A stretch of DNA of 64,000 nucleotides, from assembly GCF_028609845.1 (NCBI RefSeq), contig NZ_CP063191.1, positions 1,922,001 through 1,986,000 on the forward strand. Direction: 5' to 3'. The stretch is from Corynebacterium heidelbergense. Its GTDB lineage: Bacteria > Actinomycetota > Actinomycetes > Mycobacteriales > Mycobacteriaceae. The number at the start of each line of letters is the position of its first letter. Within the stretch, counting starts at the first letter, position 1. Positions 27,029-46,506 of the stretch are shown one piece after another. Made by a program: the position numbers and the translations under genes. A model generated the notes under the pieces. The model was not told where the DNA came from. It worked only from the letters and a program-made list of their open reading frames with translations, and searched no databases.

Positions 27029-27062
27029 GCTTCGTGCAAACCTGCTTTCAACTGTCCACCAC

Positions 27063-30927: not shown

Positions 30928-31191
30928 TTATTCGGCCGTGAAGATCCGCCGCGCCCCGATGTGGTGCGGTTCTTCTCTGTTTAAGGACGCCACCTCCCCC
31001 CGCGCCTGTTCCGCAACCCCGGGCTCTTCACTTTCTGCGGCACCGGTCAGCATGCCGCTCTCGTTGGCCCGGCGCAGCGCCTCGGTGTGCTTTTTCAGCT
31101 CGGCTTCGAACTCGGCGCTGGCCTGCTCGACGGACTGCATGAACCTGTTCATCACGTCTTCGTAGGGGCTACTGCTCATGGTGGTCACCAT
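30928..31191 (-). CDS. Small helical protein, third gene of the ESX-linked operon
   Basis: 87 residues (83 if the second Met, at 31179, is used). The start overlaps the stop of the upstream 681-residue gene by 7 bases, so it is translationally coupled. The sequence is one long amphipathic helix region (MNRFMQSVEQASAEFEAELK then HTEALRRANESG) with an acidic middle and a short tail (HHIGARRIFTAE). Not recognised. The helical, roughly 90-residue form and the operon context recall ESX-associated substrates or chaperones, but there is no clear WXG motif. Confidence 0.65.
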   Translation of the reverse strand: MVTTMSSSPYEDVMNRFMQSVEQASAEFEAELKKHTEALRRANESGMLTGAAESEEPGVAEQARGEVASLNREEPHHIGARRIFTAE

Positions 31192-33230
31192 TCCTCACTG
31201 CGTTGTAGGTGGATGTCGGTCACTGGCTGCCCCACCGGAGCGGCGGGGGCATCGGGGGCTGGTGCGCCCTCTGGCGTTGGCGGGTCGAAGGTGTCCGGGG
31301 AGGTTACCCAGATGTCCGGTTCCCAGCCAGAGCTGCCGGGATCCGGGGAGCTTGTTGCTGTCGCGGTCGACGAACTGCCGGAGGCAGCGGTAGCTGGCTG
31401 CTCCTGCGGTTCGCTGCACACTGGGGCGGCCGCGGCCCCGTCCGGCACCGACGGGTGTTTGCTCTTGTCGAACCCCTGGCACGCAGAGGTATCCCCGGCC
31501 GGCTGCTCCGCTTCCCCAACTACTTCGGCTTCCGGGGAGGGGCCGGGAGCTTCCGGCTCCGCGCAACTGTCCGCGTGTTCCCCCGCGGCATCCTTATCCT
31601 CATCGACCTCCGCCGGGGCGGCGTCCGGTGGACAATCGGGGGCCTCCTCACTGGGAACCGGGCATTCCCCAGCCCCACCAGGTCCCCATTGGATGTCCAG
31701 GGCCCCACCAGCCTGGAAGTGTCCACCGGCGAGGTCCGCTTCGATGAACCCTCCGGCGCCGAAGGAGCCAGTGGCGGTTGAACCGCCGACAGCACCGGCG
31801 GCTGTCACCCCGCCCGTTGCGGTGGCCCCGGGCGGGGGACAGACCTCCGGCGGCGGAGGCGTCACACCAGGCCCGGCAACGGCACCAAGGTCGGGTGGGC
31901 ACATCGCGGACGCCGCAACGTCGATGACAGTGTGCAGGGCCCCGGCAGCCACCTGCACACCATCGTGGGCGATCGCCACGACGTGCTGGGAGAGAACATC
32001 GCACGGCATGGGGGCGAGCCCGGGCGGCGGAACGTACGGCGGCGCTGACGGCAGTGGGGCAGGGGCCGGCATGGTGGGAGGTTGCATAGCTAGCGGTTGC
32101 GGGACGGAGACGACACTGCCGACGGTGCCAGCCGCACTGACAGAAGCGGACGCCGCAACTGCCCCGGCCACGTCCCCGGTGACCGCGTTCGTGCCTGCCG
32201 CTAACGCTGAACCTGGCTGCGTACTGCTGGCAGGAGCCACGACGGGAGCCTGCACCTCGGAGATTGCCTGGCCCAGCCCGCCAGCGGCGGCGCTAGCGCC
32301 TGCAGCAGGCGCTGCTGCAGGCGCTAGCGCCATTTCCTGCTGTGCAGGCGCGTTCACCGGGGCTGGCACAGGCGGGGTGGGCGTGGGTGCAGCCGCTGGC
32401 GGGGTGGCCGTGGACGCAGCGACTGGCGGGGGTGATGGGGCAGGTTCGGGGTGCTCGGCACTACTGGGTGGAGTAAGCGACGAATCCTCGCATTCCGCTG
32501 CCGGCTTATCGGAGCCGCCAGTCGAGGCCGGCGTAAACCCGCCATCCTGCGCAGCGCGGTCGAACTCGTCGGTGAGGATCTGGATGGCCTCCACCATGGA
32601 TTTGTTCCGCTGCTGCAGAAGCTGTTCGATCGCCCGGCTAGCGGCGTCCCCAATCGCCTTGGCCCTGGCCACATCCTCCGGACTTGCTCCCTCCGCTGCG
32701 GCGGCGGCCAACGCGGATTCGGAGATCTTTTTAGCCAGCTTGATCGCGAAATCGTTGAACGCGCCGAGGTGCTCGGCGCAGTCAACCCCCGATTCCCCAC
32801 ACTGTGCTGTGTTGTTCTCGTGTTGCTCCTGCTTCTCGCTGTCCTTAGCCACCTTGTCTCCCACGAGACCGCCGGCGAAGTCCTGGAACGTCTGGATGAT
32901 GTCGCCGACCCGATCCGCCCCGTCTAAGAGGTCATACAGCTTGGAGCCCCAGCCGGAGCCCTCCGAGGATCCCGCGCCCCCATCGGAGGACGAATGCCCC
33001 GAGCCCTCCCCATCCTTCGTTCCGCGAGCACGCCCGCCGCCAGAGCGCCCGCCGCCGGCCCGCCCTACACCCCGTCCTCTTGCGACAATCTCCGAATGAT
33101 GAAAGCTGTGCCCTACCGCTGCGGCGTCGAAACCGTCTGTGAAGCTCAGCAGACTCAAAGCCCTGTTCACGTCGGCGCCCTGCGCCTCGAGCAAACGCAG
33201 GTTGGCCGCCAACTCCGCCGTCACACTCAC
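31185..33230 (-). CDS. Large Ala/Pro-rich ESX-4-linked protein (Rv3439c position)
   Basis: 681 residues. The N-terminus (MSVTAELAANLRLLEAQGAD) is helical. A Gly/Arg/Ser-rich stretch follows, then a helical domain at about residues 90-250 (LYDLLDGADRVGDIIQTFQD; AIGDAASRAIEQLLQQRNKS). The rest is Ala/Pro/Val low complexity with roughly ten Cys scattered through the C-terminal half (e.g. APMPCDVLSQH, GECPVPSEEAPDCPPD). No signal peptide or membrane helix. Cys in an extracellular-looking tail plus operon and promoter context suggest an ESX-exported protein; this is inference. The start overlaps the upstream gene by four bases (ATGA). It corresponds in position to M. tuberculosis Rv3439c. Confidence 0.8.
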   Translation of the reverse strand: MSVTAELAANLRLLEAQGADVNRALSLLSFTDGFDAAAVGHSFHHSEIVARGRGVGRAGGGRSGGGRARGTKDGEGSGHSSSDGGAGSSEGSGWGSKLYDLLDGADRVGDIIQTFQDFAGGLVGDKVAKDSEKQEQHENNTAQCGESGVDCAEHLGAFNDFAIKLAKKISESALAAAAAEGASPEDVARAKAIGDAASRAIEQLLQQRNKSMVEAIQILTDEFDRAAQDGGFTPASTGGSDKPAAECEDSSLTPPSSAEHPEPAPSPPPVAASTATPPAAAPTPTPPVPAPVNAPAQQEMALAPAAAPAAGASAAAGGLGQAISEVQAPVVAPASSTQPGSALAAGTNAVTGDVAGAVAASASVSAAGTVGSVVSVPQPLAMQPPTMPAPAPLPSAPPYVPPPGLAPMPCDVLSQHVVAIAHDGVQVAAGALHTVIDVAASAMCPPDLGAVAGPGVTPPPPEVCPPPGATATGGVTAAGAVGGSTATGSFGAGGFIEADLAGGHFQAGGALDIQWGPGGAGECPVPSEEAPDCPPDAAPAEVDEDKDAAGEHADSCAEPEAPGPSPEAEVVGEAEQPAGDTSACQGFDKSKHPSVPDGAAAAPVCSEPQEQPATAASGSSSTATATSSPDPGSSGWEPDIWVTSPDTFDPPTPEGAPAPDAPAAPVGQPVTDIHLQRSEEW
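32289..32331. repeat. Perfect 43-bp inverted repeat inside the Ala/Pro-rich gene
   Basis: Two 19-bp arms (32289-32307 and 32313-32331) are exact reverse complements around a 5-base loop GGCGC. Each arm itself contains the 12-bp palindrome GGCGCTAGCGCC. It encodes an Ala/Gly-rich stretch, so protein sequence alone does not demand the symmetry. Confidence 0.9.
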
Positions 33231-33562
33231 CGCCGTTCACCCCCAACACCTACTGCGGGCAGACCGGCCTGGACCCCCGTAAGGCCGCCGACATTCGTTT
33301 CCTCCGCCTGGCCCACCGCAGCGGCTTCCGCATGGGCATGCTGCCCGTGGGCCGCCAACAGTTGCGCGTGCTGCTCGCGTATCCGGTGGACCCGCTGCCG
33401 GGCCGCGTGCAGCCGCGCTGCCTGCGCTGCCAGACCCGTGCCGAACGCGGCGATGGGCGTATCCGGCTGGTGCGCCATCAGGTGTTCATGCCACTGCTGC
33501 TGGGCATCCCGAAACCGCGCCGCCGCAGCCATCGCCCCCGGTGGGTCGATCTGCATTTCCAC
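33227..33562 (-). CDS. Small ESX-associated-type protein, first gene of the three-gene operon
   Basis: 111 residues from the GTG at 33562, chosen because GGAGGGGG sits 8 bases before it; an ATG at 33586 is an alternative. The product (MEMQIDPPGAMAAAARFRDA...) has a short N-terminal strand-like start, then Ala/Gln/His-rich helices (ARLHAARQRVHRIREQHAQL) and a Gly-rich tail. This layout resembles small EspC/WXG100-type ESX-associated proteins and the position matches M. tuberculosis Rv3440c; the family call is not certain. It overlaps the next gene by four bases. The bipartite promoter motif lies about 135 bp upstream. Confidence 0.7.
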   Translation of the reverse strand: MEMQIDPPGAMAAAARFRDAQQQWHEHLMAHQPDTPIAAFGTGLAAQAARLHAARQRVHRIREQHAQLLAAHGQHAHAEAAAVGQAEETNVGGLTGVQAGLPAVGVGGERR

Positions 33563-33697: not shown

Positions 33698-33726
33698 TAG
33701 ACGCCACCGGCGCCCAAAAGGTTCAC
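33698..33726 (-). promoter_or_regulatory. ECF-type promoter motif upstream of the three-gene ESX-linked operon
   Basis: On the minus strand: GTGAAC (33726-33721), 17-base spacer, CGTCTA (33703-33698). The flanks GTGAACCTTT and GTCTAACCCT are shared with the motif upstream of the esx genes at 37516-37544. The pattern resembles SigM-type ECF promoters (GGAAC ... CGTC). Confidence 0.6.
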
Positions 33727-33740
33727 GGGAATCTTCCCCT

Positions 33741-33750
33741 CCCCCCCCCC
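33741..33750. repeat. 10-base C homopolymer next to the ECF-type promoter
   Basis: Ten consecutive C bases (G on the transcribed leftward strand) lie 15 bases upstream of the -35-like element, in the gap between glmM and the ESX-linked operon. Confidence 0.85.
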
Positions 33751-33795
33751 ACATCACCCGCCCCCACCCGCTGACGCGGTAGCCGGAGAAAGAGG

Positions 33796-35139
33796 TCAGA
33801 CCTCCGCGACCACCGCGGCTAGCTTCCCCGCGATCCGGCGCGCCGTCGCCGGATCCGCCGCCTCCACCATCACCCGGAACAGCTCCTCCGTGCCCGAGGG
33901 GCGCAGCAACACCCGCCCGGTCTCCCCGAGCTCCTGCTCCGCTGCTTCTAAAGCGCCCTGGACCCTGGCGTCCGAAATAATCTTGGATTTATCCGGGACC
34001 GGGACATTGATGAGTGTCTGGGGCAGCACCCGCATGACCGAAGCAAGCTCGCTGAGGGACCGCCCGGTCGCGGCCATCCGCGCCATGATGGACAGGCCGG
34101 TGAGGGTGCCGTCCCCCGTGGTGCCGTGCGCTGGAATAACGATGTGCCCGGACTGCTCGCCACCCAGGGAGTAATCCCCCGCGTTGAGGTCGGCGAGGAC
34201 ATACCGGTCGCCGACCTTGGTCTCCCGCATGGTGATGCCCTGCTCCCGCATGGCGAGCTTGAGGCCCAGATTGGACATGACGGTGGCCACGAGCGTGTTC
34301 TTCTTCAGCTCGCCGTCCTCCTTCATCGCAATAGCGAGGATCGCCATGATCTGGTCCCCATCCACCACGTTTCCTTCGCTATCCACGGCCAGGCAGCGGT
34401 CCGCGTCCCCATCGTGGGCCAGGCCGATGTCCGCGCCGTGCTCCACCACGGCCTTCTGGATGACGTCGATGTGGGTGCTGCCCACCCCATCGTTGATGTT
34501 GTACGCATTCGGGCGGTTGTGGATCGCCGTAACTTCCGCACCGGCGCTGGAATAGGCCAGGGGGGCGGCCTCGGACGCTGCGCCGTTCGCGCAATCGACA
34601 ACCACCTTGAGGCCGTCCAGCGGGGTGGGCACCGCCAGGCGCAGGTGGTGCAGGTAGCGCTCCAGGGCATCGTGGGATTCGTCGATGATCCGGCCGATCG
34701 CCGCACCGGTGGGGCCCTGCGGGGTGAGGTTAAGCATCGTCGCTTCGACGGCGTCCTCCACCGTGTCGTCCAGCTTGTGGCCCCCCGCGGCGAAGAACTT
34801 GATGCCGTTATCCGGCATGGGGTTGTGGGAGGCGGAGATCATCACCCCCATGTCCGCCCCGAAATCATCCGTGAGGAAGGCGACTGCGGGGGTGGGCAGA
34901 ACCCCTACGTCCAGCACATCTACGCCCTGGGAGGCCATGCCTGCGGCCAGGGCCGCGGTGAGCATTTCCCCGGAGGCCCTGGGGTCCCGCCCCACCACTG
35001 CGGTGGGCCTGCGCTGGCCGCTGGCCTCGATCTCCGTGAGGACATGAGCCGCCGCCGCACCGAGTTTCATGGCCAGCGGAGCGGTGAGGCGTTCGTTGGC
35101 CAGGCCGCGGACACCATCGGTTCCGAACAATTTACCCAT
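33796..35139 (-). CDS. glmM: Phosphoglucosamine mutase
   Basis: Interconverts glucosamine-6-phosphate and glucosamine-1-phosphate for UDP-GlcNAc synthesis. 447 residues. Motifs in order: [15 protein letters not shown], the phosphoserine loop [18 protein letters not shown] (Ser about residue 102), the metal-binding loop [14 protein letters not shown], the sugar-binding GGEQSGHIV, and the phosphate-binding [14 protein letters not shown]. It follows rpsI-rplM, separated by a hairpin-rich 238-bp gap, and precedes the ESX-linked operon. Confidence 0.97.
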
Positions 35140-35245
35140 GAGGGTTCATCCTAGTGCCCCTGCCGTGGGGGCCATGGCGGCCACCACCCTTGCGGGTTCG
35201 ACGCCGCGGCAACGTGGGCGCAGGCCGGGCCCAACGAAACCGAAA

Positions 35246-35308
35246 CCGCCCACCGCAGGCGAAGAGCTCTGCGATGGGCGGCTGGTGGGGGGTCCAAGGA
35301 TTGGACCC
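35246..35308 (-). terminator. Two hairpins between rpsI and glmM
   Basis: Hairpin A (35246-35281): 13-bp stem with one mismatch, CCGCCCACCGCAG against CTGCGATGGGCGG, followed leftward by T-rich GTTTCGGTTTCG. Hairpin B (35290-35308): perfect GGGTCCAA-GGA-TTGGACCC. On the leftward strand they lie after rpsI and may attenuate transcription into glmM. Confidence 0.55.
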
Positions 35309-35377
35309 TGCGGGCGAACCGAGGGACCGGCTCGAAACCGGCAGAACCGGCGCGGCCCCAGGAAACCCGACCGGGGT

Positions 35378-35923
35378 TTAGCGCTTGGAGTACTGCGGTG
35401 CGCGGCGGGCCTTGTGCAGACCGGCCTTCTTGCGCTCCACGGCGCGGGCATCGCGGGTGAGGAAGCCGGCCTTTTTCAGCTCGCGGCGCTCCTCCGGGTT
35501 GTACTTGTTCAGCGCGCGGGCGATGGCAAGGCGGAAGGCGCCGGCCTGCCCGGAGGGGCCACCGCCGTTGAGGTTGGCCTTGATGTCGAACTGGTCTTCC
35601 CGCTCCAGCAGGACGAGGGGTGCCTTGATGAGCTGCTGGTGCAGCTTGTTGGGGAAGTAGTCTTCCAGGGTGCGGCCGTTACAGGTGATCTCGCCGGAGC
35701 CCTGCACCATGCGGACGCGGACCACGGCGCGCTTGCGGCGGCCGACGGTCTGGATCGGGCCGTCGTAGACCACGGGGGCGGCCTCGACGGTTTCCTCGGC
35801 GTCCGTTTCGGTGACAAGGGAGTCACCGATGGTGGCCACGAACTCTTCGTTCACGGCGTCGGTCGAGGTGTACTCGCCCTCGTAGTTTTCCTCGGGGTTG
35901 ATGTTCTCGTTGTAGTCGCTCAT
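35378..35923 (-). CDS. rpsI: 30S ribosomal protein S9
   Basis: 181 residues. The conserved S9 core covers the last 130 residues ([41 protein letters not shown]) and ends with the invariant basic tail RAPQYSKR that reaches the P-site tRNA. The first 50 residues are an acidic Asn/Glu/Asp-rich extension ([14 protein letters not shown]) not found in most bacteria. Its ATG overlaps the rplM stop by one base, so the two are coupled. Confidence 0.97.
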
Positions 35924-36366
35924 TACTGTGCCACCTGCTTGATCTCGAAGGTCTCCGGCTTTTGGGCTTGGTAGGTGTGCTCCGGGCCGGCGAAGACGTG
36001 GAGCTTCTTGATGGAGGCTCGGGAGAGCTTGTTGCTCGGCATCATGCCCTTGACGGACTCCTCGATGACGCGCTCTGGGTGCAGATCCAGGGAGCGGCCA
36101 AGGGTCATGGACTTCAGGCCACCGGGGTAGCCGGAGTGGCGGTAGCGCATTTCGCGATCGCGCTTGTTGGAGGACACGCGGACCTTGTCGGCGTTGATGA
36201 TGATGACGTTGTCGCCGCAGTCCACATTGGGGGCGAAGTAGGGCTTTTTCTTGCCGCGCAGCAGGTCGGCTGCGGTTACGGCGAGACGACCCAGAACCAC
36301 GTCAGTGGCGTCGATGACGTACCACTTACGGGTAATGTCACCGCTCTTCGGGTGAAAAGTAGTCAC
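35923..36366 (-). CDS. rplM: 50S ribosomal protein L13
   Basis: 147 residues from the GTG at 36366, which has AAGGAG 5-8 bases upstream; the in-frame extension to 36561 is not conserved. Core motifs: [35 protein letters not shown], then [18 protein letters not shown]. Leads the rplM-rpsI pair. The roughly 200-base leader upstream contains inverted segments but no recognised regulatory RNA. Confidence 0.97.
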
Positions 36367-36611
36367 GAGAGACTCCTTGGTGCTCGTTAGATCTGCCAGC
36401 CAGGCGCTGCGGTTCCCGCCGTTGCCGTGCGCGAAGGGCACGGTCTCACCGGTGGTGCTGTTGTCTTTTGGGATTGTGGACGCCACTAGCGGCGCGCTCC
36501 CGGCACTGCCCGCGAGAGGGGCGGAAACGGTCTGCGGCGGCCGGTGGAGACCCGCAGACACTTGTGTAACGCAACCTGAGACAGTCTAGTGACCTGCGGG
36601 CCAGACACCAA

Positions 36612-36637
36612 AAAAGGGGCCGATGACGGCCCCTTTT
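36612..36637 (-). terminator. Intrinsic terminator after the WXG100 gene pair
   Basis: 10-bp perfect stem AAAAGGGGCC / GGCCCCTTTT with a 6-base loop. On the leftward strand it is followed by a T run, so it ends transcription from the esx genes before rplM. Confidence 0.85.
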
Positions 36638-36748
36638 CGCGGCCGCACGACAACGCCGCGTTGCAGCGAAGCCGCGCTACCGCGATCCGACGGCACAGCC
36701 CGACAGGGCGAACCGGCGGTGCGATCCCACGGTGCGACCTAACTTGGC

Positions 36749-37030
36749 CTAAGCCCAGCTATTGGCTGCGTTCGTGTTGATCTGGCTCATCCGGTCGTTG
36801 GCTTCCCGCACGGCCATGCCCACTTGCCGCAGCACATCGTTGAGGTCGGCAGCGGACTGGTCCCACTTGCGCTGTGCGGCGTTGTAGGCCTCAGCGGAGC
36901 TTCCCTCCCACTCGGAGACCAGCGGCTTGAGGTCTGCCTTGAGGTTGTCCAGCAGACCGTTGATGTTGTTGGTGGTGGCGTTGATGTCTTCCGCGGCCTG
37001 GCCGACGGCACCAAAGTTGTACTGGATCAC
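36749..37030 (-). CDS. WXG100 protein (EsxT-like), ESX-4 substrate
   Basis: 93-residue helical hairpin. The WXG turn is WEG in LVSEWEGSSAEAYNAAQRKW, between two amphipathic helices. The family forms 1:1 heterodimers exported by type VII secretion; the partner would be the WXG100 gene 49 bp upstream. Position next to rplM matches M. tuberculosis esxT (Rv3444c). A strong terminator follows. Confidence 0.93.
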   Translation of the reverse strand: MIQYNFGAVGQAAEDINATTNNINGLLDNLKADLKPLVSEWEGSSAEAYNAAQRKWDQSAADLNDVLRQVGMAVREANDRMSQINTNAANSWA

Positions 37031-37079
37031 GATCTTTCCCCCTTATGTCCTAAATGCGTGTTGTCCGTGTGCGCCCGGC

Positions 37080-37364
37080 TTAACGGAATGCCGCCTGGTT
37101 GGCCATTTCGGTCTCGTCGAACGCGCGGGCGTTGGCTCGGAGGTTCTCCGAGATGCTCTGCAGCGCCTCGCTGAGCTGCCGGGCGCTGGTGTTCCAGCGC
37201 TCCATCAGGGCCTGGAAGGCGTTTTGGGCATCGCCCCGCCAACTGCCGGCTGTCCCCTCCACCACAGCAGCCAGCCGCTGCAGCTCCGCCTGCACGTTCG
37301 AGTTGATGCTGTCCACGTTGTTGGCGGCACCCTCCATGGTGCCGATCTCTGTTCTGAAGTTCAC
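37080..37364 (-). CDS. WXG100 protein (EsxU-like), ESX-4 substrate
   Basis: 94 residues. The turn is WRG (GTAGSWRGDAQNAFQALMER), a common WXG variant. The C-terminal helix ends ARAFDETEMANQAAF, where FDETE resembles the C-terminal YxxxD/E export signal with Phe in place of Tyr. Position matches esxU (Rv3445c). First gene of the pair; the ECF-type promoter motif lies about 150 bp upstream. Confidence 0.92.
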   Translation of the reverse strand: MNFRTEIGTMEGAANNVDSINSNVQAELQRLAAVVEGTAGSWRGDAQNAFQALMERWNTSARQLSEALQSISENLRANARAFDETEMANQAAFR

Positions 37365-37515
37365 AGTTTTCCCCTCCCTGGTCAGTCAATCATCGCGTCG
37401 TCGGTCGAGCGATGTGTGCAACACATGTGTTGGATGCATACCCGCCCGGTGGCCCCCGGACCGCCGGGCGTTGGGGAGCATTGACGTTGCTGTCTTTCGC
37501 GCTCCTCATAAGGGT

Positions 37516-37544
37516 TAGACCCCACACAACGCCGAAAGGTTCAC
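37516..37544 (-). promoter_or_regulatory. ECF-type promoter motif upstream of the WXG100 pair
   Basis: On the minus strand: GTGAAC (37544-37539), 17-base spacer, GGTCTA (37521-37516). Flanking bases GTGAACCTTT and GTCTAACCCT match the site at 33698-33726. In M. tuberculosis esxU-esxT belong to the SigM regulon, which supports the reading. Confidence 0.65.
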
Positions 37545-37591: not shown

Positions 37592-39076
37592 CTACTCCGG
37601 GCGAGCCGTCGCCGCGAAGCGGTCGCAGATTGCCATCCGCTCCGGGGTGACGTTGCGGTACTGGCACCCCACGGAGACCTGGTGCCCCGCGACGAAGCGA
37701 ACGTGCCAGAGCGTCACGGAGTCCGCGAACCGCTCCCGGTAGCTCACCGGCGTGTTGCTGACAATCTCCATGCCGCCGGTCTTACCCAGCGCCGTGAGCA
37801 CCGCGCGGTCCAGTTCCGCCTGCGAGTGGACGGGGGCCGGGGCCGCCGCGACCAGCACCCGCATTCCCTCGTCCCCGGAGCGGTATTCCTCCCGTTCCGG
37901 GGTGGCCCCGGCGCGGCGCCAGCCAGCCACGTCCGCAGTGGTGGGCACCCGTGCCCGGCTGTTGGTGGAAGGCGCGCTCGCCGGTCCCGCATCCGCCCTG
38001 TCGTGGGCATGACGCCACGGATCTTCTGGAGCGTCCCGCTGTTCTGCCGGCATCGCGGCGGTCGCGGCCGGCGCCGAGCTGGGGCCAGCCCCCGCAGACG
38101 GCGCGGACCCCGATGCCGCGGTGCCTTCTTCTTCGTCCGCCCCCGCCTCCACGTTGACAGCGCCAGCTTCCACTTGGCTTTCGTTCCCCCCTGCTCCGCC
38201 GATCATCACTGCCAGCGCGATGCCCACGCCAAGCACGCCGCATCCCGCAACGACGGGAAGCGCGGCCCGCCGCGGCGATGGGGAGCTTGGCAGTTCGTCC
38301 TCCACGTAGCCCTCATCGGTGAGCTCCTCGTCCTCATCCGCACGATAGAAGCCGCCGTCCTCCGCGCCTGTGTCATGGTCCAACTCGTAGGGCAATGGGG
38401 TTATTTCGGTGGGGACGCCACCTCCACCCAGCGCCGCCAAGGACCCACCCTGCAAGCCGACACCTTGCCCGGCCCCGTCCGCGGGCTCGCCCGCGGACGC
38501 ACACAACGTGGGCGGGACTCCCGCCTCCCGTTCCGCCCGCGCGAGTGCGTGGGCCACTTCGATGGCGGGGTCCGGGTCGTACACCCGGGCCCGAAAACCC
38601 TCCAGCTGGAGGTATCTGGCCACCACGGGCGCATGGGTCCCGACAACGAGCAGGTCAGGTGGGTTGATACCAATCCCCCAGGGGAACCGGTTTCTGGGCA
38701 GGGTCGGTTTGGCCGAAGCGGCCGACGGGTTGGCCACGCGCTGTTCCAGGGCGTCGATAACCGCCTCTCGCAACTGGTCGAGACGCGCATGCCCCAACGG
38801 GGAACGCCGGAATCGATCCTCCCCCTCGTCGGCGAGCAACGGATCCTTGTTGTGGGAGCTTCCCGGAAAGTCGGCGACGGCGACGAACCCCGTAGACAGG
38901 TCGGTGACGGTCGCGCCGTCCACGAACAGGCCGCTCTCCTGCAACCCCACCGCCTGTGCGACAACCCCCATGTGCGGAAGCGGCGGCACCAGCGGCTCGA
39001 CTGGGCCGCCGCGCCGTGTTTTCGCCGGAGCTGCGGAGCCCGCAGCCGGCCTTTTGCTACGCCGAGACAACATCAT
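37592..39076 (-). CDS. Type VII secretion-associated protein, Rv3446c family
   Basis: 494 residues. The N-terminal half has a nucleotide-binding-like beta-alpha layout (MGVVAQAVGLQESGLFVDG; PPDLLVVGTHAPVVARYL). A membrane helix lies near residue 270 (LPVVAGCGVLGVGIALAVMI). An extracytoplasmic Ala/Glu-rich linker precedes the conserved C-terminal domain, about 120 residues (ADVAGWRRAGATPEREEYRS; LWHVRFVAGHQVSVGCQYRN). This architecture is specific to ESX-4 loci. Its role is unknown. It overlaps eccC by four bases. Confidence 0.88.
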   Translation of the reverse strand: MMLSRRSKRPAAGSAAPAKTRRGGPVEPLVPPLPHMGVVAQAVGLQESGLFVDGATVTDLSTGFVAVADFPGSSHNKDPLLADEGEDRFRRSPLGHARLDQLREAVIDALEQRVANPSAASAKPTLPRNRFPWGIGINPPDLLVVGTHAPVVARYLQLEGFRARVYDPDPAIEVAHALARAEREAGVPPTLCASAGEPADGAGQGVGLQGGSLAALGGGGVPTEITPLPYELDHDTGAEDGGFYRADEDEELTDEGYVEDELPSSPSPRRAALPVVAGCGVLGVGIALAVMIGGAGGNESQVEAGAVNVEAGADEEEGTAASGSAPSAGAGPSSAPAATAAMPAEQRDAPEDPWRHAHDRADAGPASAPSTNSRARVPTTADVAGWRRAGATPEREEYRSGDEGMRVLVAAAPAPVHSQAELDRAVLTALGKTGGMEIVSNTPVSYRERFADSVTLWHVRFVAGHQVSVGCQYRNVTPERMAICDRFAATARPE

Positions 39077-42000
39077 TGCTCCCCCTTTTCGTCTTCGTGG
39101 CGGGCGACATGGATTGCCCAGGGTTCCGAGTGGACGTACACTCCCCGCCCCGGCTCCCGGCGCTGCAGCTTCTGCCCAGCGATGGGGCCGTCTTCCCGCG
39201 GTGCGGATAGAACCACCCAGGCTGATTGATCACGGACGGCCTGCATGAGCGGCTGGAAAGTGCTGCGTGAGAACAAGCCGCTGCGCCGAGCAAGGACGAG
39301 GTGCAGCCCCACATCGGCGGCAAAGGGCACCACGTCAAGCAGAACATCCAGGCCAGGGTCGCTATCGGAATCGTCCACAACGACGTACAGCTCTGGGCCA
39401 GTCCACCAGGACCGCTCGCGCAACTGCTCGCTGGTGACCTTCTGCGGAATGCGCTCGCGCAAGCGCGCGGCCCAGGCCCCCAGTTGCTGCTTGAACTCTT
39501 CCCGCGGCAGGTAACCGGGGCAGCCCATAAGTCCCCGGCGGGTGTCGGTCGCAAGAATTTCAATGGGGCGGGCGGCGGCGGGCCCGCGCAATTCGGCGAC
39601 GGTGTGCAGTTGGGTGCACAACGTCCGCAGCGCGGTGGTGGCGCCCGCTCCGGACTGGCCCACGACGAACAGGTGCGGATAGGTGCCGCTGTCCCAGGCG
39701 ACCACCTCCAACCGCGGTCCACCGAGCGCGAAGGGGACGGGCGGGGCCGACAACTGACGTCTAGCCTCGGCGGCGTCGGGAATTTTGCCCGTGGCGGCCC
39801 ATTCCTGAGCCAGTTCCTCGGCGGAATAAATGTCCGGCAGGACCCTCATCTCGACGTTGGGTTCGCCACGCTCCGCGGTTACTCGGCGCACGTGCTCCAC
39901 ATCCTGCGCGGTGCTCAACGCAACCTGGAGGTGCTTTCCGTTATGAGACACGCCCCGGCCCGGCAGATCCGGCAGGCTGCGCTGGGCGTCCCGGAACACC
40001 GAGTCCAAGGGGGTCATCCGCAGTTCCAGATGCCCGGTGAGCACGTCTCGCAAGGTGGGGCGCAGATTCCACCGCAGGGCGGTCACCACCACGTGCAGGC
40101 CCCGTTCAAGGCCGGTCGTGGTCATCCGGATGAGGCGCTGTTCTTCCTCGCTGCCGGACTCCCCGACGGAGTCGATGCCATCGATGATGAGTACCCGGTG
40201 GCCACTGACCTGATCTGCCTCGTCCAGGAGGCGCTTGAGATGCTCTTTCCCCACCACCGCCGCGACCTGCGGAAGCCGGCGGAGCGAAGCCAGGGAGCCA
40301 CCGGGATCGAAGATGTAGATGGGCACGTTGGGGCTGCTGAGGGCCAGCCCGATGACGAGAGTCCGCAGTGCGAAGGTCTTCCCGCTTTGGGGTTGGCCCA
40401 CCACAACCCAGTGTTTTCGAGTGAGATCCACGTCATAGGGAACTTGCTTGCCGTCGAAGGGGAGGTCCTCCACGCCGACTCGGGCACACAGGGTGGCCAC
40501 GGGGCGCACCACCTCCGGGGCACGCAGGACAGTGGGCAAAGGTGGCAGCCAAATGGGGTTGGTATTGGGGGCGGCAAGCCGGTCCACCACCATGTCTAAC
40601 GTGGTCTTCGTGGCCTCCGGCTGTGCCCCCAGGGCCCGGATCACCCGCTGATCCCGGGGCAACTCCGGCCCGGAAACGTAGGCGGCCTTGAACCGGGTGG
40701 TTTCGTGGGAACACAAGATGGCGGATCCTGGCACCGCGGGCAATTCATGCGCTGCCGCGGAGCCGATGAGCGCCCGGGATTCGGCCGCGGAGAAGGTTCG
40801 CAGGGCGATGCGGTAGCTCAGGTGGGATTCCAAGCCGCGCAGCCGCCCCTCCTCCAAGCGCTGGCTGGCGAGGAGCAAGTGCATGCGCAAGCTTCGTCCC
40901 AGTCGGCCGATGGCGGCGAAGACATCGGCGAACTCCGGCCGGCAGTGCAGCAGTTCAGAAAACTCGTCCACGATGATGAACAGCGCCGGCATAGCCCCGG
41001 GGTGGGCGCGGTTAAACTCCGCGGCCGTCGTCATTCCCGCAGCCCGTAGGCGTTCTTGGCGCCGGTGCATCTCCCCGAGCAGGCTGTCTTGCATGCGGTC
41101 GACCAGCCCCGCCTCATCCGCCAAGTTGGTGATGACGGCACTGGTATGCGGCAGCCGGTCCAACCCCAGGAAACTCGCCCCACCCTTGAAGTCCACGAGA
41201 ACGAAGTTCAGCTCCTCTGCCGAGTGCTGGTGCGCGAAACTGACCACCACAGCCTTGAGCAGTTCACTCTTGCCGGACCCGGTGGCGCCGATACAGAGGC
41301 CATGCGGGCCAATTCCGCCCAGCGCGGATTCCTTGATGTCCAAGTACACGGGGGCCCCGGAAAAGCCGATGGGAGCACTGAGATCGCCACCCGGTAGTTC
41401 CAGGATGGAGGTGGTCCCCTTCACGGTGGACCGCGCTCGGCACAGCATCGCCAGCTCCACGTCGCTCAGTTGGTCGGCCACCCCGAACGTGGACCATCCG
41501 TCCACCGTCCAGGCAGACAGGCGCATCACGCCAGCCTCGCTCTGCGCCTTGAGCAAAAGCCCCTGGGCCTTGGCCACGTCCAACCACTCCGGGGAGGGGT
41601 CGTGCACAACGCACTGGGAGGTCACCGGGTGGGTGCTATCGCAGAAGCGGTAAGTAGCGGGGCCATCGTGGGGTAGCCACTGATCGTGGGGCCCCACGAT
41701 CGTCGCTGCCCCTTTGTCCTGGCAGACCAACTGTGCCTGCATGGCCCGGGACAACCCGGCCGCGCCATCGCCGACGATCACAACGCTGTGGAAGCTGGCC
41801 AGGTCCACGGCCACGGGAGCCTCGATCGTGGCCGTCCGAATGGCCAGGTCTCGCAGGCTCATAGCGCTGACCGGCTCCAAGTCCTCCGGGGGTGCCGTCA
41901 CCGGGATCTCCAGCGGATCCTCGGGAGCTTGCACCGCGATACCCAGGCGAACCACTCCGGCGGCCCCCGTTGCGTCCTCGCCAGCGCGCAGGTGGGTCCA

Positions 42001-42321
42001 CAGGGTGCGGGGATCCGGGTGTTCTTGGGCCAGCCGCGCGATTTGTTTGCGCCGCGAGCGTTGAATGGCGTCCTTCACCGCATCGATATGGCGATGGAAA
42101 CTCCGGCGCGTTTCGTCCACATTGCCCCCGGGCTGGAACATCATCACCATGGACCCCAGCATCATCAGTGGGAATACAAAGGTCATCGGGGAACGGCCGG
42201 AGCCCGATAACACCATGGCCCCCACCATGCCCAGCACGGCGACCAGCATGACTGCCGGCATCAGCATGCGAATGAACGGCTGTTTTTCCTTTGGCAGCGT
42301 CGGTGGCGCCTGCGCCTTCAC
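39073..42321 (-). CDS. eccC: ESX-4 ATPase EccC
   Basis: 1082-residue FtsK/SpoIIIE-type motor of the type VII secretion system. Two N-terminal membrane helices (about residues 20-62) are followed by three ATPase domains. D1 has Walker A IGATGSGKSELL (about 344) and Walker B LFIIVDEFSEL. D2 has VVGQPQSGKTFALRTL (about 644) and VLIIDGIDSV. D3 has VVGQSGAGATTALRTL (about 887), where the Walker A Lys is Ala, so this site is probably inactive. EccCa and EccCb are one chain, as in ESX-4. The start is a GTG after GGGGAGG. Divergent from eccD. Confidence 0.95.
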   Translation of the reverse strand: MKAQAPPTLPKEKQPFIRMLMPAVMLVAVLGMVGAMVLSGSGRSPMTFVFPLMMLGSMVMMFQPGGNVDETRRSFHRHIDAVKDAIQRSRRKQIARLAQEHPDPRTLWTHLRAGEDATGAAGVVRLGIAVQAPEDPLEIPVTAPPEDLEPVSAMSLRDLAIRTATIEAPVAVDLASFHSVVIVGDGAAGLSRAMQAQLVCQDKGAATIVGPHDQWLPHDGPATYRFCDSTHPVTSQCVVHDPSPEWLDVAKAQGLLLKAQSEAGVMRLSAWTVDGWSTFGVADQLSDVELAMLCRARSTVKGTTSILELPGGDLSAPIGFSGAPVYLDIKESALGGIGPHGLCIGATGSGKSELLKAVVVSFAHQHSAEELNFVLVDFKGGASFLGLDRLPHTSAVITNLADEAGLVDRMQDSLLGEMHRRQERLRAAGMTTAAEFNRAHPGAMPALFIIVDEFSELLHCRPEFADVFAAIGRLGRSLRMHLLLASQRLEEGRLRGLESHLSYRIALRTFSAAESRALIGSAAAHELPAVPGSAILCSHETTRFKAAYVSGPELPRDQRVIRALGAQPEATKTTLDMVVDRLAAPNTNPIWLPPLPTVLRAPEVVRPVATLCARVGVEDLPFDGKQVPYDVDLTRKHWVVVGQPQSGKTFALRTLVIGLALSSPNVPIYIFDPGGSLASLRRLPQVAAVVGKEHLKRLLDEADQVSGHRVLIIDGIDSVGESGSEEEQRLIRMTTTGLERGLHVVVTALRWNLRPTLRDVLTGHLELRMTPLDSVFRDAQRSLPDLPGRGVSHNGKHLQVALSTAQDVEHVRRVTAERGEPNVEMRVLPDIYSAEELAQEWAATGKIPDAAEARRQLSAPPVPFALGGPRLEVVAWDSGTYPHLFVVGQSGAGATTALRTLCTQLHTVAELRGPAAARPIEILATDTRRGLMGCPGYLPREEFKQQLGAWAARLRERIPQKVTSEQLRERSWWTGPELYVVVDDSDSDPGLDVLLDVVPFAADVGLHLVLARRSGLFSRSTFQPLMQAVRDQSAWVVLSAPREDGPIAGQKLQRREPGRGVYVHSEPWAIHVARHEDEKGEQ

Positions 42322-42538
42322 GCTTTTCCTCCCCCATTGTGCTCGTCATCGTGTTCTTCCCCCGGTGGACTGAGCGCGAGTCCGATTAGGCAGCGTACTC
42401 CTTCCCCGCCCGCTGGGCAGGGGCAAAAACAAACTATCCACAGGGGGGTGGCTCACCCCGTCGCCGATGTCCGGCGCGGGCACTATGCTGTGTGCTCGCA
42501 GGGGGACACGTAGACGTTTGTGGGGAGGGATTTCTGCC

Positions 42539-43813
42539 GTGCTAGCAGTCAGTATCGCCATTCCGGCGCGCAATTCGGTGGTGGAGGCAGCCATCGCGGA
42601 TCACATACCGGTCGCCGAGCTCATTCCGCACTTGGTCGACCCGGAGCCGGGCCAGCATTGGGTTTTGTCCCGGGCGACGGGGGACATTCGGCCGGAGCAT
42701 TCGTTGGACCAGGCGGGGGTGCGCCCCGGGGAACGCCTCACCCTCGAGCAATCGGAGGTTGGTCGCTGCCCCACTCCCCCGATCGACGCTGTCGACGAGC
42801 TGACGGGCTCCGTCGGGACAAACCACTCCACCTGGATCTGCGCGATCATCGCCGCGCTGTTCGCCATTCGCAGCGTGCCGGTGTGGAATCCGCTGCAGTT
42901 TCATCCGGCCCGGCAGTTGGCTTTCCTGCCCGGAGGGTTGCCGGGGATGCTCGCCGGGCATGCGGGTGGCCGGCCGACCGCCGAAGGTGCGGACAACGCC
43001 TCGCAGCAGGCTTCCTCACAGGCGAGCGAGGCCGCGTCCTGGCTGACGGACTCGGGCGCGCTGGTCCCCCTCGTCCTCATCGCGCTGGCGGCCCTGGCCA
43101 CCGCGGCCTTGTCTCTACACGATCGCAGGTTCGTCCCCATCGCCGCGATCTTGGGCTTCGGGGCGGGTCTGCACGTCAACGTCATGTGCGGTTGCCTGCT
43201 GGCCACGGCGCTCGTGTGGCGCCGAGGGTTTACACGGGTGCTGCTCGTGGCCCTCACCGCCTTTGCCGCCATCAACGTTGCTCCTGGGGTGACGCTCCTG
43301 GTCGCCCTGGTGGTGCTGGCGATCTCGGGGCAGATTGCGGTGGGGGTCGCGGGGATAAAGCTCCCGCGAGTACCGGCCACGGGGGTGTTTCGAGAGCCTG
43401 TGGATAACTCCGCTGGTTCCGCCGTTCCCACCCATTCGGCGCTCGTGGTGGCGTGCTGCATCGCCATCGTGGCTTGCGTGATGCAGATCCTCCCGCCGGG
43501 CTCGCAGCATCCGTCCGGCTGGGTCTGCGCCCTCCTCGTCATGGTGGTTCTCACCGGTGTGTCCTCCCGAGATTGCCGCCCGGTGCACGCAACTGCGGTG
43601 GCGGTCATGGCCGCTGTGGTTGGTCTGTGGTTGGCGTGGCACGTGTCGTGGGGGGTTCTCGTGCTGGCGCTGCTGGCCGTGCCGCTGATCAAACCGACTT
43701 CCCCGCTGTTCGGGCGAGCTGTGGATGCGGTGGAGAACGTGGCCTTCGCGGCGTGCGTTCCGCTCGCGCTGCACACCACTGGTCTGTTCGAGGCGATTAG
43801 GGGGATCGGGTGA
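42539..43813 (+). CDS. eccD: ESX-4 membrane channel subunit EccD
   Basis: 424 residues from the GTG at 42539, which has GGGGAGGGA nine bases before it; 24 extra upstream codons are Arg-rich and were excluded. The first 75 residues are the ubiquitin-like cytosolic domain (SVVEAAIADHIPVAELIPHL). About ten or eleven hydrophobic helices follow from residue 100. EccD forms the bulk of the ESX membrane pore. The stop overlaps the mycP start. The 217-bp gap to eccC must hold both divergent promoters. Confidence 0.88.
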   Translation: MLAVSIAIPARNSVVEAAIADHIPVAELIPHLVDPEPGQHWVLSRATGDIRPEHSLDQAGVRPGERLTLEQSEVGRCPTPPIDAVDELTGSVGTNHSTWICAIIAALFAIRSVPVWNPLQFHPARQLAFLPGGLPGMLAGHAGGRPTAEGADNASQQASSQASEAASWLTDSGALVPLVLIALAALATAALSLHDRRFVPIAAILGFGAGLHVNVMCGCLLATALVWRRGFTRVLLVALTAFAAINVAPGVTLLVALVVLAISGQIAVGVAGIKLPRVPATGVFREPVDNSAGSAVPTHSALVVACCIAIVACVMQILPPGSQHPSGWVCALLVMVVLTGVSSRDCRPVHATAVAVMAAVVGLWLAWHVSWGVLVLALLAVPLIKPTSPLFGRAVDAVENVAFAACVPLALHTTGLFEAIRGIG

Positions 43814-45189
43814 TGCACGCTCGGCCCTACCCCGTGCAGCCCACCTTCGAGCTGGCTCAACCGGCCCCGCCACACGCCGGGCACGTGCCATGCGAGGTAC
43901 CTCTCCCCGGCAAGGCGCTACCGCTCGATCTCGGCAGTGGGTTTTCCGGGCCGGGACCTGCGGGCGTAGCCGAGGGCGGGGGTGCTACCGGCGGTGCCGG
44001 GGCTGCCGGGGTCTCGGGGAGTTCGATTGGGGACGCCAACTCCGTCACCCAGCGCCCCCTCAACGGCATCCGCCATGATCTGGCCACTGGCCGCGGGGTG
44101 AAGGTCGCCGTGGTGGACACGGGTGCAGCGATCCCCGACAGCACGGGGGACCGCGATACCTGCATCCTCCACGGCACCGTCACCGCCAGCGTGGTCCGCG
44201 CGGTCGCCCCGGAGGCGGAAATCGTGAGCTATCGCACGGCGGAGAAGAACTCACCCCGGGGTGAAGGGTTGCTGCACGTTGCGGTGGAGGCGATCAACCG
44301 CGCCATTGACGACGGGGCGAAGGTCATCAACGTGTCCCTCGTGGCCTGCGCGGAGACCCAGGGGCTTCGAGAGGTGGTGGACCGCGCCGAGGCCGAGGGC
44401 CGCATCATCGTCGCAGCCATTGGCAACACGGGGCAATGCCAGGAGGGGCTGGCTCCGTACCCCGCCCATCTGCCTTCGGTTCTCGCGGTGGGCGCCGTCG
44501 CTCCCCGGGTCGGCGGGCTCAGCGGACACCCCGTATCTGGCGGCGGTGGCCACCAAAAACAGGCGGCAGCGCTGGAAGGTAAGGGCGGGGCACGGGTGGC
44601 CCAGAAACCCGGTGGTCCTTCGCCGCAGATGGATCAGGGGCGCCTCCCGGCCGAGTACAACCTGCCTGGACCATGGGCCGACATCTACGCACCGGGCGGA
44701 CCCGTCTCGGGCCAACTGGACACTCCAGACGGCCCGATCACCATCGTGGGCAATCCCGAGCCCTTCATCGGAACCAGCTTCGCGGCACCGGTCGTCAGCG
44801 GCACTGCGGCCCTCATGGCGCAGGTCGCCCCGCACACACCCCCGGCGGTGATGCGGGATATCCTGCTGGCCTCCGCTATCCCGGGGGGTTTCACGGACCA
44901 TGCGCATCCCGTTCGGGTCATCGATCCCTCCGCTGCCCTATCCCGTGCGGCGGGGGTTCACCAGCGCCTGGCCTTGGGCGTGGACCCGGCGACGCATTCC
45001 CGTGATGTGGACAACCTGCTGCGCCCGGCCCACCCCGGTGTCGGCCACACTCACATCGGAGCGAAGCCGGTGGAGCACACGGCCACGAACTACACCGTGG
45101 CGGGGTCCTGTGGCCTGTTCGTTTCCCTCGCCGCTATTGCTGCTGTGATTGTGCGGGCACGACGCCAGCGCGGGCGCGCGACCCGTTGA
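43810..45189 (+). CDS. mycP: Mycosin, ESX-4 subtilisin-like protease
   Basis: 459 residues. The subtilase triad is complete: D103 in VVDTGAAI, H121 in LHGTVTAS, S323 in GTSFAAPVVSG, with the oxyanion Asn in AAIGNTG. A C-terminal membrane anchor is present near residues 430-450 (GLFVSLAAIAAVIV) with a basic tail. Mycosins act at the outer face of the ESX channel and normally have an N-terminal signal peptide. None is visible here: the N-terminus is Pro/Gly-rich, and an in-frame TAG four codons before the start rules out a longer form. Overlaps eccD by four bases and eccB (convergent) by 56. Confidence 0.92.
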   Translation: MMHARPYPVQPTFELAQPAPPHAGHVPCEVPLPGKALPLDLGSGFSGPGPAGVAEGGGATGGAGAAGVSGSSIGDANSVTQRPLNGIRHDLATGRGVKVAVVDTGAAIPDSTGDRDTCILHGTVTASVVRAVAPEAEIVSYRTAEKNSPRGEGLLHVAVEAINRAIDDGAKVINVSLVACAETQGLREVVDRAEAEGRIIVAAIGNTGQCQEGLAPYPAHLPSVLAVGAVAPRVGGLSGHPVSGGGGHQKQAAALEGKGGARVAQKPGGPSPQMDQGRLPAEYNLPGPWADIYAPGGPVSGQLDTPDGPITIVGNPEPFIGTSFAAPVVSGTAALMAQVAPHTPPAVMRDILLASAIPGGFTDHAHPVRVIDPSAALSRAAGVHQRLALGVDPATHSRDVDNLLRPAHPGVGHTHIGAKPVEHTATNYTVAGSCGLFVSLAAIAAVIVRARRQRGRATR

Positions 45190-46315
45190 GCGCCCCCGCA
45201 TCTGGCAGCGGCGCGAGGATCCGCCACGGAACCTCGTCATAGGACGTAAAGCCCAGGGCGGCGAAGTCCTTCGCACTCCCCACGGTGTAGCGCAGACCGT
45301 GCTCACTGACCAGGACATAACCGCGCTCGGTGAGGACGGCGGCAGTGCCGCGCGGACCCAGGTAGGTCCGCTGGTCGCGGTTGTCCTGCGGCCGCTGCGC
45401 GGGAACAACTAGGCCTTCGCGTCCGACGCAGGGGACGGCAGGGGTCTGCCATTTCACCTCTGCGGCGGCGGGCACGTGGGGCAGCACCTCCGCCGAGGGC
45501 AGGGCGAGCAGCACAGACAGCGCCTGTTCCAGCGCCACGTCCGGCGCGTTCCACTCGGCGAGGACCCGCTGAGCCCCACGGACCTCCCCAACGCCCCCAG
45601 GTACGGCCACGAACATGCGCTCGCCGGCGGTAAACACCCGCCCGGAGACGTCATAGGGCGCCGGCAGACCGGTGGGCCCAGTGGGGAGGATAGAGTCCGC
45701 CCGCCGCTGGAACTGCTCGATGAACTCCTCCGAGACCTCCCCGGGTTGGACCCCCAGTGCCCGGCCCGTGCCCGGTGGAACGAGAGTGCGGGAATCCCGG
45801 TGGATAAGCCAGGTCCCAGAGGGGGAGGTGAGCACGGCGTTATCGATCTTCCTTGCCTGCGGCCCCGCAATGACGGTTCCGGAGTCGCACACGGCCCACT
45901 GCTGGCTGGGGGCAGGGGCTAGCCCGGGCACGTCACTGATACCCATCGGAACTCCCAGGGGCATCTTGGCGAGCTGGCCACTCGTCGCCTTCTTGACCTC
46001 CACCGGCTGCCCGAGAATCAACCGTGCCGACGCAACATTGGTGACCGGGTGATAGCCATCCTCCAGGCGCACATGAAGGGTGCCCTTCTCGTCCTGGGCC
46101 AACTCCGCTCCGTTCAGGGATGGCGCGGGCCGGAGCAGCGCCATCATCACTGCACCCCCGCAGATGAGCAGGGCCACCAACACGCCAACGATGAGGGCAC
46201 GGCGCTGGCTTCGCAAAGGATCGTGGGCCATCCGCGGATCCCCGATGACGAGCGCGAGCTCCAATCTGCGCAGCAGAAAGTTGTAGCCGCTGACTTGCAA
46301 CCCTGTAGTACGCAC
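45134..46315 (-). CDS. eccB: ESX-4 core component EccB
   Basis: 393 residues from the GTG at 46315, preceded by GGGGAGGGGA. The family signature is at the N-terminus (TTGLQVSGYNFLLRRLELAL then DPLRSQRRAL). A single membrane helix follows at about residues 42-62 (VGVLVALLICGGAVMMALL), then a large extracytoplasmic domain. In ESX systems EccB spans the membrane and contacts the periplasmic side of the channel. Convergent with mycP (56-bp overlap). Confidence 0.92.
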   Translation of the reverse strand: MRTTGLQVSGYNFLLRRLELALVIGDPRMAHDPLRSQRRALIVGVLVALLICGGAVMMALLRPAPSLNGAELAQDEKGTLHVRLEDGYHPVTNVASARLILGQPVEVKKATSGQLAKMPLGVPMGISDVPGLAPAPSQQWAVCDSGTVIAGPQARKIDNAVLTSPSGTWLIHRDSRTLVPPGTGRALGVQPGEVSEEFIEQFQRRADSILPTGPTGLPAPYDVSGRVFTAGERMFVAVPGGVGEVRGAQRVLAEWNAPDVALEQALSVLLALPSAEVLPHVPAAAEVKWQTPAVPCVGREGLVVPAQRPQDNRDQRTYLGPRGTAAVLTERGYVLVSEHGLRYTVGSAKDFAALGFTSYDEVPWRILAPLPDAGALNGSRARAGVVPAQSQQQ

Positions 46316-46506
46316 GGGTGTTGACTTCCCCTCCCCGGTAGAACCCCTCAACTACTCCCCCGCCGCAGTGACGCTACCGCGGCAGGCAGCCAGTCGATCC
46401 CCACAGACCCCAATGACTGGCGTAGACGGCTTATAGCTTCGCATGTTTGAATGTGCCGTGCATGGTGAACGGGGATTCGCTAGGAAAATATGAGGGGGAC
46501 TTACTG

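Follow-up and report, generated by a model that had tools for sequence, protein, structure and literature searches.

Two predicted promoters of the extracytoplasmic function (ECF) type were analyzed in a 64,000-nucleotide (nt) stretch of the Corynebacterium heidelbergense genome that carries an ESX-4 type VII secretion locus. This whole stretch, C1:1922001-1986000 of a 2.33-Mb genome, is referred to as the window and has a GC content of 66%. Site 1 precedes an operon encoding proteins of 111, 681 and 87 amino acids (aa), and site 2 precedes a pair of WXG100 genes (esx). Judged from their sequence, both sites are probably promoters recognized by a single ECF sigma factor, for which SigM is the most likely candidate. 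This factor would switch on five units together: the esx pair and the three-gene operon in the window and, elsewhere in the genome, recA, a gene for an HNH nuclease, and a gene pair for a small protein and an NlpC/P60 protein. The assignment to one ECF promoter class, most likely that of SigM, is well supported. An earlier analysis of the window from its letters alone (the sequence-only reading) had proposed that one ECF factor co-regulates the esx pair and the operon. Conservation of the site throughout the genus, start-codon spacing that fits leaderless transcripts, and sites ahead of esxU in other genera strongly support this proposal. However, a picture confined to ESX genes proved too narrow, since the site is also found ahead of recA, the nuclease gene and the NlpC/P60 pair.

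Both sites lie on the minus strand with the letters GTGAAC-N17-SGTCTA, and the coordinates and the spacing of 17 given by the sequence-only reading were correct. The identical flanks it described were also found, as 10-nt blocks common to both sites (GTGAACCTTT and GTCTAACCCT). The spacers of the two sites differ in sequence. The pattern GTGAACN{16,18}SGTCTA has two matches in the window against 0.01 expected, and none of 100 shuffles reached two. In addition, a matrix trained on recA sites, which is described below, ranked site 1 first and site 2 second over the window, with the third match at 17.3. Site 1 is positioned 69 nt beyond the glmM open reading frame (ORF) and 135 nt ahead of the start of the 111-aa gene. 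Site 2 is positioned 47 nt beyond the Rv3446c-like ORF and 151 nt ahead of the first esx start. A weaker candidate had been proposed ahead of eccB; its letters are present, and its score of less than 10 in the recA-trained matrix leaves it unsupported in this genome. In two relatives (G007 and G043), a gene read as eccB is preceded by an exact GGGAACC..GTCTAA site.

A search of the whole genome, suggested as a check by the sequence-only reading, found GTGAACN{16,18}SGTCTA at six places against one in the reversed control. One match with N18 (G000:C1:562925) was rejected, as it is within an ORF and has no extended flank. The extended form, GTGAACC-N-TT-N13-SGTCTA, occurs at exactly five exact places. 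These five copies head recA (L002), the HNH nuclease gene (L003), the 101-aa/NlpC-P60 pair (L004), the 111/681/87 operon (L005) and the esx pair (L006). The nuclease gene matches Pfam GmrSD_C and HNH_4, and its hydrophobic N-terminus suggests that the product is exported. At L004 the gene for the 101-aa protein is followed by that for the NlpC/P60 protein. Five additional sites with two mismatches (L007-L011) were rejected as background because the control gave three such places; no regulon-like ORF was recognized behind them.

The genus sample consisted of 101 Corynebacterium-genus genomes, and related genomes were counted separately in all tallies. The 400 nt ahead of esx in 30 genomes and ahead of recA in 30 genomes (the best 30 of 101, with the own genome included) were read, and most of these regions share GGGAACC-N17/18-GTCTAA, with clade variants. 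This genus form in its exact letters has 286 matches in 74 of the 101 genomes, against 5 reversed-control matches. The window form departs from it at one -35 position (GTGAACC). Exact matches to the window form in other genomes were located ahead of the same genes, namely the NlpC/P60 pair and esx in G015 and recA in G081. This follow-up outside the own genome covered L021, L022 and L030, and nine other places were left out.

The matrix was constructed from the recA sites of 29 of the 30 genomes; the low score of its best site (7 of 13) led to the exclusion of G017. Dinucleotide shuffles were used as the control. Of 67 named Corynebacterium esx loci scored with the recA matrix, among which C. 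glutamicum was not represented, 64 exceeded the 99% shuffle level and 65 exceeded the 95% level. Chance, or a local duplication of the region, might be proposed for the match between the window sites, which have a 10-nt block in common at each end. However, the two spacers differ, three other exact copies stand in the genome ahead of unrelated genes, and both the excess over the control across the genus and the 64 esx loci contradict such an origin. It can be given practically no weight.

The sites also have a spacing characteristic of promoters. Besides the 30 search loci, 80 regions were picked from the matches listed, giving 118 site entries (some of them one site entered twice) in 39 genomes; there were 97 distinct sites among L093-L202. 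In 34 of these 97 sites, the distance from GTCTAA to an ATG that opens a frame of at least 100 codons is exactly 6 nt. Next in frequency, five sites have an ATG at 5 nt, four an ATG at 39 nt and four a GTG at 6 nt. The exact 6-nt distance fits leaderless transcripts from this -10 box. The shared element could instead be the operator of a DNA-binding regulator, as it is conserved and bipartite with a near-fixed spacing, and sequence scans alone cannot show transcription. However, its two blocks are dissimilar and non-palindromic, and the 17/18 spacing fits a promoter. The 6-nt distance to the start codon fits a promoter as well, and an operator would have no reason to maintain it. An operator appears very unlikely.

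The genes behind the site fall into recurring families. In 100 of the 118 entries the first or second ORF belongs to a family that recurs among the matches. The window's own operon is one of the 18 entries that have no recurrent family, because its proteins were too diverged for the clustering threshold. Counted in distinct genomes of the 39, the families are recA (with recX) in 12, HNH nuclease in 11, NlpC/P60 in 11, the gene before treY in 8, treY in 8, esx in 7, a SAF-domain protein in 7, Tag adenine glycosylase in 6, DUF559 in 5, a DUF559-like family that has no Pfam match (L174) in 2, and a lipoprotein-like family in 3. In addition, the large ESX-operon proteins form two families (4 and 3) and the small ones a single family (4), while DUF4192, eccB and one unnamed family were found in 2 each. 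The names treY, mscL, recX and eccB in relatives were assigned by sequence reading, and the Pfam scans covered no more than one or two proteins of each family. The SAF-domain protein is a membrane protein (Pfam on L127) found in seven genomes (L127, L144, L156, L165, L182, L185 and L202), and an mscL-like gene is next in several of them. A family of about 185-215 aa, which had no Pfam match in the one member scanned, has the site in eight genomes, with a treY-like gene next in six. A com regulon was also considered and was dropped: no com gene was recognized by eye among the 118 annotated site entries, while comEA, comEC and dprA were not themselves located and scanned.

The predicted ECF-type promoter ahead of recA is widespread in Corynebacterium with exceptions (G017) and is patchy beyond the genus. 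Among 14 recA loci of the family outside the genus, the site was absent in 12, with a best score of 6.9 (9 loci of the Mycobacterium-like genus g2, 2 of g3 and 1 of g4). For example, recA at L329 had a best score of 6.7. The site was found in both recA loci of genus g5 (24.1 and 18.2). In three genomes of genus g2 recA is split by an insertion, which we take to be the mycobacterial recA intein. A box resembling an SOS box, mostly CGAAC-N4-GTTCG, is present upstream of recA in 14 of 30 loci (L063-L092). In all 10 loci where the script flagged both elements, the ECF site was closer to recA than the SOS-like box. Thus, the ECF site could be a second, LexA-independent promoter, and recA might also be expressed by a route that is independent of SOS. 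It is also presumably unlike the PafBC-type motif.

SigM is most likely the factor concerned. The putative sigM gene (match at G000:C1:2302296-2302904) is outside the window and adjoins trxB. Among the NCBIfam models SigM is the best match to this sigma factor at 117.8 bits, with the next model at 82.3, and the score misses the SigM cut-off of 190 bits. The sigM-trxB synteny was resolved by script in 10 of 30 loci (L203-L232), including the own locus; the other 20 were not counted as negative. In the 10 resolved loci (the own locus and nine others) sigM and trxB lie too close together for a full-length anti-sigma gene to fit between them, whereas in mycobacteria, as in M. tuberculosis, an anti-sigma gene is adjacent to sigM. 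The SigM query had matches in 101 of 101 genomes, which include other ECF factors, so this profile does not discriminate. The mycobacterial SigM consensus is GGAAC-N16-18-CGTC. As the sequence-only reading had claimed, the spacing and the -10 core (GTC) of the sites agree with this pattern, and the -35 of the Corynebacterium sites is GGAAC-like.

Loci outside the genus also point to SigM. An esx match was obtained in 14 family genomes, and the best ESX-4-looking locus was taken in 12 (without G174 and G181). In 12 of 12, the ESX-4-type esxU is preceded by a TGGAACC-, CGGAACC- or GGGAACC-N17/18-GTC-type site with scores of 10.0-16.5, and nine exceed the 99% level set on Corynebacterium loci. 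In a Mycobacterium-like genus, the esxU sites were read from the sequence itself. Three more esx loci, found in two of these genomes and read as not ESX-4, had nothing above 5.1. Five esx loci of other families were also scored; three had no site and two scored 10.0 and 13.7. The pattern TGGAACC-N17/18-GTCGAA was found at 21 places in the 14 family genomes. By eye, four are ahead of esxU and others are ahead of ESX-like pairs; in two of these pairs, the second protein is similar to the N-terminal part of the NlpC/P60 protein of Corynebacterium. An AbiEi-like gene follows one place, and several look like chance.

In the literature, SigM is described as an activator of the M. tuberculosis esx-4 genes in the available part of PMC10117145. 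According to a review (PMC9514802), SigM of M. smegmatis acts upon physical interaction and controls the ESX-4 apparatus along with a cell wall hydrolase and a nuclease. In C. glutamicum, SigH and SigE promoters are given as GGAA..GTT and SigD promoters as GTAAC..GAT in the available parts of PMC5483222 and PMC6338062. These promoters are likewise bipartite ECF promoters with a GGAA- or GTAAC-like core in the -35 region, but their -10 is GTT (SigH/SigE) or GAT (SigD), compared with GTCTAA at the sites described here. Thus, SigM is the best candidate from its orthologous target, the trxB synteny and the differing specificities of SigD, SigE and SigH.

The sites may also be real ECF promoters that belong to another factor, either SigC or a lineage-specific ECF factor such as those at L017 and L019. 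The own genome has seven ECF-like genes in addition to two primary-like genes, and no direct SigM-dependent promoter had been confirmed for C. glutamicum, or was known for Corynebacterium, as of 2017 in the portion of PMC5483222 available. Also, sigM did not have a site of its own by the matrix in 30 sigM loci. However, SigC is a regulator of respiration in the part of PMC7337898 available, and no respiratory gene was recognized among the recurrent families. The esxU of the Mycobacterium-like genus has a similar site, and published work on M. tuberculosis and M. smegmatis shows this gene to depend on SigM. A lineage-specific factor would not serve a regulon found throughout the genus, although the spread of the L017 and L019 types was not examined. 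A factor other than SigM is therefore considered improbable.

Several observations count against assigning the sites to one SigM-type class. First, the exact window pattern was not enriched across the genus, with 17 places against 15 control places in the 101 genomes. Secondly, 27 of the 101 genomes have no exact GGGAACC..GTCTAA site. Part of these 27 carry variants (-10 GTCCAA or GTCTCT, -35 GTGAACC), which are read as drift. Third, esx of G026 and recA of G017 had no convincing site, and three of the 67 named esx loci (L293, L254 and L243) were under the 99% level. The matrix test is also not fully independent, because the recA training sites were chosen by their likeness to a consensus also seen at esx. 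Outside the genus, TGGAACC-N17/18-GTCGAA was only modestly enriched over the control (5 places). The lack of a site at sigM likewise speaks against SigM; autoregulation was rejected, as the single match of 13.7 in the 30 loci was not clearly upstream of sigM. In addition, other promoters had been linked to C. glutamicum SigM in previous work, a result that PMC5483222 could not reproduce, and C. glutamicum eccB is Fur-regulated according to PMC12607788. Lastly, the annotated matches included no recognizable canonical competence gene.

The three-gene operon behind site 1 would be an ESX-4-linked unit, judging from its place, plan and promoter. The 111-aa protein had no Pfam or NCBIfam family. 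Its single-sequence AlphaFold2 model has two helices (mean pLDDT 78, pTM 0.41), and a Foldseek search with this model against the PDB gave no match at E<=10. The 681-aa protein had no Pfam family at E<=0.001 (HutP alone appeared at 0.017, under its cut-off) and no NCBIfam family at E<=0.01. The 87-aa protein, which was scanned with Pfam only, had no Pfam family. An operon of like plan was found in seven relatives, where a motif site of the same orientation as esx is located 3.4-5 kb behind it. It encodes a 101-112-aa protein in four of them, a Pro/Ala- or Pro/Glu-rich protein of 391-569 aa in all seven and an 81-84-aa protein in two. Sequence similarity to the window's proteins is at noise level, while plan and place are alike. 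The large protein ends in Trp in eight of eight cases, including that of the window (last codon 31188-31190). In the seven relatives (L136, L142, L150, L175, L181, L192 and L196) it has a basic [KR][KR].. tail, for example RKSGEW or KKAGQW. The C-terminal Trp and basic tail are a possible export or processing signal, and the large protein is probably a secreted, ESX-4-linked substrate.

The proposed explanation is as follows. Active SigM would start transcription about 7 nt after GTCTAA. The esx pair at site 2 and the operon behind glmM at site 1 would then be expressed together, along with recA, the HNH nuclease gene and the small-protein/NlpC-P60 pair elsewhere in the genome. The products may act in one programme that combines ESX-4 secretion via a locally opened wall, processing of extracellular DNA and recombination, and the model for this programme is the contact-induced recipient state of M. 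smegmatis. A site ahead of ESX-4, recA, nuclease and cell-wall hydrolase genes hints at a coordinated cell-contact or DNA-transfer programme. A more specific version would be a SigM-run recipient programme by which Corynebacterium takes up DNA from neighbours. It would comprise ESX-4, a dedicated wall hydrolase of the NlpC/P60 type, export of the HNH nuclease and SOS-independent recA-recX, as the counterpart of mycobacterial distributive conjugal transfer with recA included in the regulon. This version is tentative and less likely than not.

The features discussed are listed in Table 1. The locus was identified as ESX-4 from its EccB, EccC, EccD, MycP and WXG100 pair genes and from the adjoining rplM-rpsI, which was assigned by sequence reading. 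Of the 101 genomes of the genus, 99 had a match to the first esx protein at E<=0.001. The third-best matrix match in the window, at 36387-36417 on the minus strand (GGGAACC..GATCTAA, 17.3), is ahead of rplM; its -10 core deviates, and it may be due to chance. Two fused ORFs were also observed on the minus strand. An 825-aa ORF (22723-25200) contains a GNAT acetyltransferase domain and TsaD by Pfam. Its start, where there was no Pfam match, presumably resembles TsaB, and the ORF is likely a TsaB-RimI-TsaD fusion. A single 618-aa ORF (25235-27091) joins alanine racemase and TsaE domains.

Table 1. Predicted promoters, genes of the operon and ESX-4 locus in the window, and loci of one recurrent family in relatives
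Feature	Position or loci	Strand	Evidence
Site 1, ECF-type promoter (predicted)	33698..33726	-	-35 GTGAACC, spacer 17 counted from GTGAAC, -10 CGTCTAA; matrix 23.3
Site 2, ECF-type promoter (predicted)	37516..37544	-	-35 GTGAACC, -10 GGTCTAA; matrix 22.8
Weak candidate of the sequence-only reading ahead of eccB	46423..46450	-	<10 in recA-trained matrix; unsupported
111-aa small helical protein, operon gene 1	33227..33562	-	start codon uncertain, frame open from 33667
681-aa Pro/Ala-rich protein, operon gene 2, C-terminal Trp	31185..33230	-	
87-aa small protein, operon gene 3	30928..31191	-	
WXG100 protein, first esx gene, EsxU position	37080..37364	-	Pfam WXG100 7e-21
WXG100 protein, second esx gene, EsxT position	36749..37030	-	Pfam WXG100 6e-18; NCBIfam WXG100_ESAT6 above cut-off
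Rv3446c-like protein associated with type VII secretion, upstream of site 2	37592..39076	-	NCBIfam TIGR03931 above cut-off
EccC-type FtsK/SpoIIIE ATPase of ESX-4	39073..42321	-	Pfam FtsK_SpoIIIE 1e-49
EccD-like protein	42467..43813	+	Pfam YukD above cut-off; EccD below cut-off
MycP-like subtilase	43810..45189	+	Pfam Peptidase_S8
EccB	45134..46351	-	Pfam T7SS_ESX1_EccB
Members of the ~185-215-aa family before the treY-like gene	L123, L133, L140, L160, L163, L171, L180, L194		

The promoter class and its link to ESX-4 were already known; what is new is a Corynebacterium regulon with recA, nuclease, NlpC/P60 and repair genes. No report of a Corynebacterium SigM regulon with recA was found among the open-access matches listed, as judged by title and start of abstract, with subscription journals mostly outside this search. 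The nearest paper (PMC12607788) describes control of the C. glutamicum locus by Fur. PMC5483222 stated in 2017 that the function and target promoters of SigM in Corynebacterium needed further investigation, and it named the solubility of SigM as an obstacle to in vitro transcription. The motif gives a concrete list of targets throughout the genus, so this question becomes directly testable. The site would place type VII secretion under one control with genes for recombination and a nuclease. The C. glutamicum ESX-4 was recently described as an iron-uptake device (PMC12607788, accessible text), and if the tie holds, ESX-4 would be recast as part of a cell-contact or DNA-handling programme.

Two known systems can be compared with these sites. 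In the LexA/SOS and PafBC control of actinobacterial recA, recA is under more than one control, as may be the case here; the Corynebacterium ECF site differs in being an element separate from the SOS-like box. The sites also resemble the mycobacterial SigM/ESX-4 regulon, as its ESX-4, cell wall hydrolase and nuclease classes, named in the available portion of the review cited above, are also behind the Corynebacterium sites. However, the Corynebacterium site also heads recA-recX, the Tag glycosylase, DUF559, SAF-domain and pre-treY genes, and GTCTAA takes the place of GTCGAA or GTCCAA in its -10.

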